Assembly (NCBI GenBank): GCA_028704385.1
Contig: JAQVLA010000002.1
Coordinates: 186,001 to 250,000 of the forward strand
From: Bacteroidales bacterium
Lineage (GTDB): Bacteria; Bacteroidota; Bacteroidia; Bacteroidales; F082
Direction of reading: 5' to 3'
DNA: 64,000 nucleotides
A model generated the notes under the pieces. It was not told the DNA's origin and searched no databases. It worked only from the letters and a program-made list of their open reading frames with translations. Below, piece after piece: positions 36,901 through 62,213 of this stretch. A program made the translations under genes and the position numbers. Position 1 is the stretch's first letter. Each line of letters starts with the position of its first letter.

Positions 36901-36969
36901 TCGTTTGCACTAAATCAGAACCTTTCTAAATAATTAAATATACTATTCTGCCTGCATTGGCATAATGAC

Positions 36970-36977
36970 TATTTTTG
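36970..36977 (+). promoter_or_regulatory. -7 promoter element for AcpH-like gene
   Basis: TATTTTTG matches TAnnTTTG. Transcription would start near 36984, downstream of the ATG at 36965, which supports the TTG at 36998 as the true start codon. Confidence 0.65.
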
Positions 36978-36997
36978 CCGAAAAAGGAGCGTATAAT

Positions 36998-37603
36998 TTG
37001 AATTTTCTTGCACATGCGTTTCTGTCGGGTCCAGATCATCAGGTGCTGATCGGGAATTTTGTTGCCGATAGCATTAAAGGGAAAATGATCGAACGATATA
37101 ACGATGGTGTTAAAAAAGGGGTGATTTTACACCGTGCCATCGATGCCTACACAGATCAGCATGAAGTGGTTAAAAATAGCGTTGCGCGACTTCAGCCGGC
37201 TTTTCGCAGGTTTTCACCAGTGATAGCTGATATTTATTATGATCATTTTTTGGCGGTTCATTGGAAAGATTACGGTTCAACAGAATTGTCGGAATTTTCG
37301 GCTAAGGTTTACAAAATTCTTATCAGAAATTTCTCAAAACTTCCTCCACGATCTAAGCGGATATTGCCTTGGATGATAGCACAAAACTGGCTCACAGGTT
37401 ATGCTAATCTACATGATCTTCAAAGGGTTTTTAAGGGGATGTCGCATCGAACAAGTTTTGACTCAGGCATGGAAAATGCAGTAGATTTTTTAAGGAAGAA
37501 CTATCAGGATTTTGAAGATGACTTCAAACTCTTTTTCCCTGATCTGATGTCAAAAAGTGACGAAGTTTTAAAGGGCCTGGATGCCGGTTCTTCTGGCGAA
37601 TGA
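36998..37603 (+). CDS. Acyl carrier protein phosphodiesterase-like protein (AcpH/DUF479)
   Basis: A 201-residue member of the AcpH family, which removes 4'-phosphopantetheine from acyl carrier protein in E. coli; HD-like all-helical fold. TTG 36998 gives MNFLAHAFLSGPD, the usual family N-terminus; ATG 36965 would add 11 residues but overlaps the -7 element. Conserved segments: GNFVADSIKGKM, GVILHRAIDAYTDQHEVV with the metal-ligand His/Asp, ADIYYDHFLAVHW and MAIAQNW-like MIAQNWLTGYAN. It is divergent from iorAB and followed at 117 bases by the cyclic-nucleotide-binding gene. Confidence 0.82.
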   Translation: MNFLAHAFLSGPDHQVLIGNFVADSIKGKMIERYNDGVKKGVILHRAIDAYTDQHEVVKNSVARLQPAFRRFSPVIADIYYDHFLAVHWKDYGSTELSEFSAKVYKILIRNFSKLPPRSKRILPWMIAQNWLTGYANLHDLQRVFKGMSHRTSFDSGMENAVDFLRKNYQDFEDDFKLFFPDLMSKSDEVLKGLDAGSSGE

Positions 37604-37720: not shown

Positions 37721-38929
37721 ATGGACGAATTGTTGATAAACATTGAGCAGCGTATCATATTACTGAAACGAATTGCTGTATTTAGCTCATTAAGTAACGA
37801 GGCACTAAATAAATTGTCCTTGCTTTTAAAAGAGCGAAAAACCAGGCCACAAGAATCCCTATTCAAAAAAGGAGAACAAGGTGAAAATATGTATATTCTG
37901 GCCGAAGGAGAGGTGCGTGTACATGATGGTAATCACGTGATTGCACGTTTGGGTGCCGGCGAAGTTTTTGGTGAATATGCACTTTTTGATACTGAAAATC
38001 GTTCGGCTTCGGTAACCACTGAAAAACAATGTGTTATACTTGTTTTGGACAGGGTTTCTTTAATGGATTTTTTAAAGAAGTATCCTGAATTACTGATGGG
38101 TATGCTTCAGCTTCAAATCAAACGCATGCGAGAGATGAATGAATTGGAAGAGAAATTGTCGAAAAGCTATCTTAAGATTACTAGACAGAAGCAGGAAATA
38201 GAGACGCAACATGAAGCCATTAAATATCAGAAAACACAACTCGAAGCACAGAATAAAAGTTTGGAGGAGCTCAACAATCAGAAAAAACAGCTGTTAAGTA
38301 TTATTATTCACGGACTGAAAAATCCAATGACAAGCGTGAGGGCAATGGCTGAGATGATTGATTCGTCAGACCAACTTGTTCCTGAAATTTCTGAGTATGC
38401 TTCCATTATGCTTCATGCCGTTGGCAGGATGGATAATGTGATCAATGATCTGATCCGGACAAATCAGGCACAGGAGATGCTTCAGGATAAAACACAGCAA
38501 AGGCTCAACTTACCGGATGTCTTAATCCAAATTTCAGATGAAAATTCACAAATCCTTAAGCATAAGAAAATTAAGGTAAGTGTTCCGAAGAATAATCCTG
38601 ATCTCAACCACAACCATACTTCTGTTCAACTGATGTTGGAGCAACTTTTCAATTGGATGATAGTCTTTGCCGATGAGAATCAATCGATAGAATTCACTTT
38701 TGGTGATTCGGATAATTTTGTCATATATACGGAGTTTGTTCCTGCAAAACAACTTCATTCTTATTTAAAAATTGATTCATTAAGCTGGTGGCAACTTGCC
38801 ATTATTGCAGAAGAAGGAGAAGATTTTGAAAGATTGAATTATTTAAAGATATTATTCAGGCAGGCCGGTGCAGTGATTCACTGGTCGTTTAATAGCAACA
38901 GATTAAAAATAAGCATTACGCTTAGTTAG
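37721..38929 (+). CDS. Cyclic-nucleotide-binding domain protein with degenerate histidine kinase module
   Basis: A 402-residue cytosolic protein. Residues about 15-130 form a cyclic-nucleotide-binding domain with the phosphate cassette FGEYALFDTENRSASV (Glu85, Arg94). Residues 135-192 are a long heptad-rich coiled coil. A HisKA-like dimerisation helix follows with IIHGLKNPMTSV (His197, Pro202), an intact-looking H-box. The C-terminal 150 residues have the size of a HATPase domain but lack recognisable N, G1 and G2 ATP-binding boxes. It is thus probably a cNMP-controlled scaffold or phosphotransfer protein and not an autokinase. No response regulator is adjacent. Confidence 0.72.
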   Translation: MDELLINIEQRIILLKRIAVFSSLSNEALNKLSLLLKERKTRPQESLFKKGEQGENMYILAEGEVRVHDGNHVIARLGAGEVFGEYALFDTENRSASVTTEKQCVILVLDRVSLMDFLKKYPELLMGMLQLQIKRMREMNELEEKLSKSYLKITRQKQEIETQHEAIKYQKTQLEAQNKSLEELNNQKKQLLSIIIHGLKNPMTSVRAMAEMIDSSDQLVPEISEYASIMLHAVGRMDNVINDLIRTNQAQEMLQDKTQQRLNLPDVLIQISDENSQILKHKKIKVSVPKNNPDLNHNHTSVQLMLEQLFNWMIVFADENQSIEFTFGDSDNFVIYTEFVPAKQLHSYLKIDSLSWWQLAIIAEEGEDFERLNYLKILFRQAGAVIHWSFNSNRLKISITLS

Positions 38930-39066: not shown

Positions 39067-39408
39067 ATGCACTATTGCAAAGTCATAATATTTACAACGC
39101 TTATCCTACTCCTGCTTGCCTCCTGTGCAAAAAGAGAACTAGATATTGATATCGGCAGGGTAGAGGTGATTAATGAATCTGAAAAACCTCATGCTGTTTT
39201 TGTAAAGCTTGTCGGGGATAGTTTAGCATTGGAACAATATGTTGGTACTTTACCAATAGCATCACACATACTTGTACCACTCAGAGCCAAGGTAGAATAC
39301 GAATTAAAAATAGGGGAAATAAATACCGGAAGAGTTGATAAATTTGAAAGTAGAGTAAGGCTTCAGAAGGATGAATATTTTAAACTTATTTTCAACGGAA
39401 TAGATTGA
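39067..39408 (+). CDS. Small lipoprotein, unknown
   Basis: A 113-residue protein with a lipoprotein signal (IIFTTLILLLLASC, lipobox LASC near residue 20). The mature part is a single small beta-rich domain (IGRVEVINESEKPHAVFVKLVG ... EYFKLIFNGID). I do not recognise the family. It follows the pseudo-kinase gene by 137 bases and has no obvious partner. The -7 element was not identified. Confidence 0.6.
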   Translation: MHYCKVIIFTTLILLLLASCAKRELDIDIGRVEVINESEKPHAVFVKLVGDSLALEQYVGTLPIASHILVPLRAKVEYELKIGEINTGRVDKFESRVRLQKDEYFKLIFNGID

Positions 39409-61683: not shown

Positions 61684-61703
61684 TAAATACTTGTTTAGCT
61701 TTG
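61673..61703 (+). promoter_or_regulatory. Promoter of receiver-domain gene (-33 TTG, -7 TAGCTTTG)
   Basis: TTG (61673-61675) inside the 3' end of rpe, 20 bases, then TAGCTTTG (61696-61703). The ATG follows at 61731. Confidence 0.7.
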
Positions 61704-61730
61704 CATTTCACAAAACCAAATTCCACCCAA

Positions 61731-62213
61731 ATGACCTCCATAGCTTATGCCAGTTTGGTTTTTCCGAATTCGGGCATACTTCACTCTTCAGCTGAATTTG
61801 ATGAGACTGAATTTGATTTTCGAAACATCAAGAATATCTATCTCGGAAAGAAGGTTCTGATTGTAGAAGATATTCCTTCGAATTTTCAGCTTTTACATGC
61901 ATTTTTGGCACCAACCGGACTAACTGTTATTCATGAAGTTGATGGCGAACACGCTTATGCAGCATTTAAAAGAAGTCCGGATTTCGACCTGATTTTGATG
62001 GATATCAGACTGCCTGACGTAAGTGGGTTGATGATAACCAAAATGATTCGGGAATTATCGCCTGATATTCCCATTATTGCACAAACCGCCTACGCACTGG
62101 ATGCTGACCGCTATCAATGCCTGGAAGCAGGTTGCAACGATTATATTGCCAAGCCAATCCGGAGAAACCAATTGTTTAGGATTGTGCATAAATACCTTTC
62201 CTGGTCCTGCTAA
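61731..62213 (+). CDS. Single-domain response regulator
   Basis: A 160-residue protein with about 38 non-conserved N-terminal residues, then a receiver domain: KVLIVEDIPSNFQLL (Glu46, Asp47), phospho-acceptor Asp91 in LILMDIRLPDVSGL, Thr119 in IIAQTAYALDADR and Lys141 in DYIAKPI. There is no output domain, so it probably shuttles phosphate or binds a target, like hybrid-kinase receiver modules. ATG 61731 is preferred because an earlier in-frame TTG overlaps the -7 element. No histidine kinase is adjacent; the only kinase-like gene in the window is the pseudo-kinase at 37.7 kb. Confidence 0.88.
   Translation: MTSIAYASLVFPNSGILHSSAEFDETEFDFRNIKNIYLGKKVLIVEDIPSNFQLLHAFLAPTGLTVIHEVDGEHAYAAFKRSPDFDLILMDIRLPDVSGLMITKMIRELSPDIPIIAQTAYALDADRYQCLEAGCNDYIAKPIRRNQLFRIVHKYLSWSC

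Follow-up and report, generated by a model that had tools for sequence, protein, structure and literature searches.

A probably kinase-dead histidine kinase homologue with a cyclic nucleotide-binding domain in Bacteroidales: a candidate response-regulator phosphatase

Cyclic nucleotide-binding domains (CNBDs), HisKA histidine kinases and pseudo-kinases are all known individually. In CrdS, a Gly or Gln at the position next to the phospho-accepting His (H+1) leaves the protein kinase-dead and phosphatase-competent, and the Asn at H+4 is required for phosphatase activity; in the cited passages of the same paper, four tested HisKA kinases without the H+1 acid were unable to autophosphorylate (PMC3510030). 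The core of RetS, with a degenerate HATPase domain, is described as a transmitter phosphatase in the cited part of PMC5992135. The isolated DHp domain of HK853 has phosphatase activity, so the ATPase domain appears to be dispensable for this activity (cited part of PMC5727384). PhyT carries the motif HRxxN and a degenerate ATPase domain, and according to the portion of PMC5898713 cited here it transferred phosphate in vitro but showed no phosphatase activity.

In this study, we analyzed P0001, a protein of a Bacteroidales genome (G000) encoded within a window of 64,000 nucleotides, by which we mean the whole stretch of DNA that was analyzed. The gene starts with ATG and comprises the following features, given in window positions.

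37721..38929, + strand: whole gene P0001, 402 aa, in the order CNBD, coiled coil, DHp, decayed HATPase
37835..38083, + strand: cNMP-binding domain (CNBD), residues 39-121 (Pfam PF00027, E 3e-20)
37967..38017, + strand: phosphate-binding cassette, residues 83-99, including Glu85 and Arg94
38084..38278, + strand: long helix or coiled coil, residues 122-186 (model helix 123-215)
38279..38467, + strand: HisKA/DHp helix pair, residues 187-249 (Pfam PF00512 and model helices)
38309..38326, + strand: H-box HGLKNP, residues 197-202, with His197, Gly198 replacing the acid, and Asn201 at H+4
38492..38926, + strand: decayed HATPase domain, residues 258-402 (hhalign, model and fold search, residue tally)

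The Pfam matches to the CNBD and to HisKA (residues 187-246, E 2.5e-9) both lie above the curated cut-off. No HATPase_c match was found in P0001 up to E 1, and the C-terminal part had no Pfam match of any kind. In the AlphaFold2 model of the full-length protein (pLDDT 84, pTM 0.49), the CNBD is followed by a single helix (residues 123-215), which comprises the first DHp helix as well as the coiled coil. The second DHp helix spans residues 221-249, and an alpha/beta domain starts near residue 258. For comparison, 50 homologues were aligned. Four of these (L018, L021, L022 and L043; incomplete at a contig edge, short or broken) were left out, giving 46 rows for the tree and the residue tallies, and alignment A1 (44 rows) additionally excludes L054 and L059; L048 was omitted as a duplicate of L038 with an identical sequence. 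L038 is one of three loci retrieved from a further contig collection; the contigs of the other two, L036 and L037, are equal in length to those of L007 and L008. Matches occurred in 67 genomes of the order, and locus DNA covers the best 30 of these matches. A profile search over 60 order genomes led to no new class of relative being taken up, and viral contigs held no relative of P0001.

The phosphate cassette of P0001, FGEYALFDTENRSASV, is complete. Gly84, Glu85 and Arg94 are present in all 46 rows, and the CNBD was matched in 44 of the 44 A1 proteins. Structure comparison of the full-length model with 1u12 (Z 20.8, rmsd 1.8 over 131 residues) agrees with a CNBD fold, so that P0001 combines this fold with the Glu/Arg cassette of the CNBD family. 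Five CNBD proteins are encoded in G000. When they were read individually, the Glu/Arg cassette was complete only in P0001; the other four are one CNBD-aspartase fusion without the Arg and three proteins of CRP/FNR size. The fusion (L111:1327-3177, G000:C21) is a 617-aa protein that joins a CNBD (E 6.8e-19) to a lyase of the aspartase/fumarase family (Lyase_1 E 2.1e-94, FumaraseC_C E 2.8e-22), and its cassette keeps Gly-Glu and is missing the Arg. Similar fusions were seen by eye at L115, L117 and L029. They look like a cyclic-nucleotide-type sensor placed on a metabolic enzyme, and they occur also in genomes without the cyclase linked to P0001 (G083, G085).

The HisKA domain carries the phospho-accepting His of active kinases (His197), and the acid that active HisKA kinases have beside it is absent (Gly198). 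The His and a Thr or Asn at H+4, here Asn201, are the pair found in HisKA transmitter phosphatases of the RetS type. A DHp His next to a non-functional ATPase-like domain is also the arrangement of the dimeric histidine phosphotransferases Spo0B, ChpT and PhyT. The His is invariant in the 46 rows, while H+1 is Gly in 37, Asp in six, Gln in two and Asn in one. The 44-protein alignment shows no variation at His197 or Pro202 and more than 90% conservation at Asn201.

The C-terminal half was folded and searched separately because the full-length model retrieved only CNBD proteins (Foldseek, VIA-align). The model of residues 184-402 (pLDDT 82, pTM 0.63) matches whole DHp-HATPase kinases in the PDB, the best listed match being ZraS (9jfj; Z 17.1, rmsd 3.6 over 204 residues, Foldseek E 7.7e-11) and further ones RetS (7n0e, Z 14.4; 6dk7, Z 14.2) and DivL (4q20, Z 13.9); this model and the full-length one are biased towards the HATPase fold because the alignments behind both hold relatives with real HATPase domains. 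In hhalign, the C-termini of the seven members of the genus matched 12 real HATPase domains with a probability of 97% (E 8.7e-11, 10% identity). Profile and predicted structure thus point to the same homology to real HATPase domains. However, in these seven members the two N-box Asn residues are replaced by Gln/Lys and Trp/Thr, the D-box Asp by Phe/Leu, and the glycines are either missing or substituted. None of the tallied N-, D- and G-box residues, which an active kinase would have, is left in any of the seven. By comparison, both N-box Asn residues and the D-box Asp are present in 30 of the 30 HATPase-bearing relatives, and each D-box glycine in 29.

These results confirm what an earlier note on 37721-38929 had observed: a cNMP-binding domain with an intact-looking cassette, a coiled coil joining it to the H-box helix HGLKNP, and a C-terminal part lacking the ATP-binding boxes. 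The structure prediction that the note had proposed as a check yielded a HATPase fold without ATP-binding residues, which leaves the claim standing. At the level of sequence, its view of a design gated by a cyclic nucleotide and devoid of its own kinase activity is also supported, and P0001 is very probably kinase-dead.

The decay of the HATPase domain is lineage-wide, since it is found in all seven genus members, and the gene is kept in seven of the seven genomes of the genus. Nine relatives from g4 and g13, sister genera within the same family, end 57-59 residues after the His. No ATPase remnant was detected downstream of the stop in these nine truncated genes (best tblastn E 0.058 over 19 residues; for L039 the search was limited to 210 bases). 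HATPase_c matched 28 of the 44 A1 proteins, and the 16 without a match equal in number the seven genus members plus the nine truncated relatives. In the 46-row tree, these two groups form one clade of 16 rows (100/100) on a long stem (1.36). This clade is nested in a 33-row clade (95/96) whose remaining members carry HATPase domains; the deepest forks are weak (44/57). The relatives in other families retain the ATPase boxes, and most of them already have Gly in place of the catalytic acid beside the His. The H+1 residue is Gly in 16 of 16 ATPase-less proteins and in 21 of the 30 HATPase-bearing ones. Because Gly is so common where the HATPase domain is still present, the acid would have been lost before the ATPase domain, provided that the canonical acid is ancestral. 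L065 (family f14), a member of A1, shows what looks like a separate, second case of ATPase decay: its H-box HDLKNP is intact, but it has neither the D-box glycines nor the G-box.

Within the ATPase-less clade (mean identity 62%), the His, the H+4 Asn and the cassette do not vary in the 16 proteins. The invariant columns include F83, G84, E85 and R94-T99, 20 of the 50 coiled-coil columns at 137-186, and S193, I196-G198, K200-P202, T204 and S205 of the DHp helices. The reading frames are intact in the seven genus members and the nine truncated relatives, which share 53-95% identity. The dN/dS ratios indicate purifying selection, being 0.02-0.19 for the CNBD, 0.01-0.29 for the DHp helices and 0.25-0.31 for the C-terminal domain among the unsaturated pairs (dS was saturated in many others). 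Constraint on the C-terminal domain is therefore relaxed, yet present. The retention of the gene in all seven genus genomes and ratios of 0.01-0.31 argue that the feature reflects more than chance. In G013 (genome 83% complete), the gene copy (L128, G013:C201) is split over several frames. Other frames on the same contig look broken too, which makes an assembly error as likely as decay.

A candidate source of the signal lies outside the window.

G000:C22:73022-74836: membrane class III cyclase (cyclase domain E 5.1e-24)

It is the one class III cyclase found in G000 with PF00211. Hydrophobic N-terminal stretches were seen by eye, and a HAMP-like stretch falls below the Pfam cut-off. Among the 173 genomes of the family, the gene is present in 17, the cyclase in 17 and both in 16, counts that ignore shared descent. 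G084 (84% complete) has the gene without the cyclase. G079 (79% complete) has the cyclase without the gene; its acyl carrier protein phosphodiesterase (AcpH) gene is cut at the contig end where the gene would follow. Two members of g13, G083 and G085 (96-97% complete), have neither gene nor cyclase; both encode an AcpH homologue that has no P0001-like neighbor. Two independent co-losses of gene and cyclase in these genomes were considered and set aside: the AcpH tree is weak at this point, with G083 grouping with G031 at 92/59 and G085 long-branched and unplaced. In the order sample of 393 genomes (P0001-like gene at E <= 1e-50, cyclase at E <= 1e-60), the cyclase occurs in 28 of 31 gene carriers versus 34 of 362 other genomes, uncorrected for shared descent. 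The three carriers without it (G301, G327 and G358) are 76-81% complete. By our reading, one or more genomes with the cyclase occur in each of the 12 family codes that have the gene. Of gene and cyclase, it is the cyclase that is found more widely, as the 34 order genomes with it and without a P0001-like gene indicate. Taken jointly, it is likely that P0001 binds a cyclic nucleotide and that the co-occurring cyclase supplies it. Some cyclase orthologues have a C-terminal HD domain (L083:7321-9861, E 2.1e-5; by eye also L084:6679-9129), possibly a built-in phosphodiesterase.

The AcpH gene directly precedes that of P0001, 117 nt upstream.

36965..37603, + strand: acyl carrier protein phosphodiesterase (AcpH) gene (Pfam PF04336, E 3.6e-67)

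In 21 of 26 loci, AcpH is the immediate upstream gene in the same orientation, at distances of 5-472 nt, and it keeps this place in L096 and L097 although nearly all the remaining neighbors differ. AcpH was rejected as a functional partner and is counted as a neighbor only, because it is far more widespread than the gene (67 versus 17 of the 173 family genomes). The five loci without an upstream AcpH are L100, L103, L087, L105 and L107. The H-box is the canonical HDLRNP in L105 and L107 (family f76) and HDLKNP in L087 (f14). In L107 and similar loci, the neighbors resemble, by eye, glycoside hydrolases, a sugar phosphorylase and a sugar transporter; the position of L087, L105 and L107 among genes resembling those for maltose and starch use suggests that cyclic nucleotides may regulate sugar utilization in these families. 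A small predicted lipoprotein is encoded downstream of the P0001 gene (window 39067-39408), with homologues in five of the 26 loci, all from the same genus.

Receiver-like proteins are encoded in six of the 26 loci, and no receiver gene lies within two genes of a P0001 homologue in any of the 26. The earlier note had named a lone receiver at 61.7 kb (61701-62213) as a possible partner. It is not supported as a specific partner and was rejected as such, since the distribution of its homologues does not follow the gene: they are found (E <= 1e-30) in 28 of the 173 family genomes, some of which (G083, G085 and those of genera g6, g7 and g15) are devoid of a P0001-like gene. The two genes are linked, about 24 kb apart, only in close relatives and are unlinked in G004 and G005. 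The TTG start of this reading frame is doubtful. The receiver domain itself starts at residue 52; in several relatives the alignment sets in only near residue 40, or a stop precedes that point. The interpretation in the earlier note thus holds for the build gated by a cyclic nucleotide, the missing kinase activity and the kept DHp, and finds no support for this partner.

We propose that P0001 is a soluble cyclic-nucleotide receptor derived from a histidine kinase that lost kinase function. The membrane class III cyclase would make the cyclic nucleotide, probably cAMP, and the CNBD would bind it. The coiled coil would relay the ligand-induced change to the DHp dimer, which, with its His and H+4 Asn and without the adjacent acid, may dephosphorylate a receiver domain encoded elsewhere; we infer the direction of this switch and the identity of the receiver along with the phosphatase output. 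We give about an even chance to the proposal as a whole, that of a kinase-dead receptor acting through its DHp, most probably as a response-regulator phosphatase, and for the phosphatase output by itself the balance is roughly equal. It is only tentatively possible that P0001 is a dedicated response-regulator phosphatase switched by a cyclic nucleotide, which was derived from a histidine kinase by the loss of one element after another and provides a one-cyclase, one-receptor route from cAMP-type to two-component signaling in Bacteroidales. The acid beside the His would have gone first, then the ATP site and then the entire ATPase domain. The scaffold or phospho-relay suggested in the earlier note may also be right, but a transmitter phosphatase accounts for the kept His and H+4 Asn no less well.

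That no receiver gene lies within two genes in the 26 loci counts against this proposal. So does the result on PhyT, as far as the cited portion of PMC5898713 goes: a similar anatomy can relay phosphate instead. P0001 might likewise be a dimeric histidine phosphotransferase of the PhyT/Spo0B/ChpT kind, in which a His197 gated by the cyclic nucleotide moves phosphate from receiver to receiver. This would explain a His invariant in 46 of 46 rows, and PhyT, with a non-acidic H+1 and a degenerate ATPase domain, relays phosphate from SdrG to PhyR; Spo0B and ChpT are likewise cited as degenerate kinases (both from the same part of PMC5898713). However, phosphotransfer does not specifically need the H+4 Asn that is kept in 16 of 16 ATPase-less proteins, and no receiver pair lies nearby. 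We regard this role as unlikely, yet as a serious rival, and the same applies to a non-enzymatic adaptor. In the latter case the ligand-bound coiled coil and DHp would associate with another histidine kinase, as a mixed DHp bundle, or with a receiver and thereby inhibit or release it, which is one of the mechanisms of RetS. RetS, which is among the best listed structure matches of the C-terminal half, also inhibits GacS autophosphorylation (cited part of PMC5992135), and few parts of the 16 proteins are as conserved as the coiled coil; a pure binder, however, would need neither the His nor the H+4 Asn, both present in 16 of 16.

Phosphorylation of P0001 in trans, by the ATPase domain of another kinase in a mixed dimer, is very improbable. 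Mixed dimers of kinases are known, which counts in its favor, as does the constraint on the C-terminal frame within the genus (dN/dS 0.25-0.31). However, nine relatives are without any ATPase-like domain, and the tested HisKA kinases lacking the H+1 acid failed to autophosphorylate (four kinases, cited part of PMC3510030). That the gene is a functionless kinase relic on its way out is hardly credible: despite the long clade stem (1.36), the rapid C-terminal evolution and the absence of gene and cyclase from G083 and G085, the frames are intact in all 16 proteins, the CNBD is under constraint (dN/dS 0.02-0.19), and the sequences from nine genomes share an end point within two residues.

To our knowledge, little is known about the role of class III cyclases in Bacteroidales. 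One cyclase and one complete-cassette receptor, each the sole one of its kind in the genome, co-occur across families, and the circuit that we propose is for this reason simple enough for a two-deletion test. The pairing suggests that cAMP-type signals feed into two-component signaling by a route that has not been studied. The family also offers a natural gradation in the loss of kinase function, from which the sensor, the His and the H+4 Asn are exempt; such a series is relevant to the way in which pseudo-kinases acquire a new job. No published account of the combination of CNBD and dead kinase, of the graded decay or of the cyclase link was found in our literature search, which covered few subscription journals.

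Among known systems, the Pycsar antiphage systems resemble the present case in pairing a class III cyclase with a CNBD protein. In Pycsar the cyclase gene lies beside that of the CNBD effector, whereas the P0001 gene is on G000:C12 and the only class III cyclase found is on G000:C22; P0001 also differs from Pycsar effectors in having DHp and HATPase domains and no TIR. Assignment to Pycsar was rejected, as the PADLOC models match only the shared domains and the genes are unlinked. RetS of Pseudomonas aeruginosa shares with P0001 a HisKA domain with a kept H-box motif and a degenerate HATPase domain unable to autophosphorylate, but the cited part of PMC5992135 describes a membrane hybrid with receivers that keeps HExxT, whereas P0001 has a CNBD sensor and Gly in place of the acid. 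PhyT and PhyP of Sphingomonas are similar in the non-acidic H+1 (HRxxN) and the degenerate ATPase domain. As the cited portion of PMC5898713 presents them, they are unlike P0001 in being membrane-anchored phosphotransferases without a CNBD, encoded beside their target PhyR. Spo0B and ChpT, cited in the same portion, share the dimeric DHp and the non-working ATPase-like domain. They are not among the best 50 structure matches listed for the C-terminal half of P0001. We know of no sensor domain in either of them, unlike in P0001. The CNBD-HisKA-HATPase kinases of Bacteroidales, such as L071 and L045, are direct homologues with the same domain order. The H-box of L071 is the canonical HDLRNP and that of L045 is HGLKNP, as in P0001, and unlike P0001 both keep the N-, D- and G-box residues.
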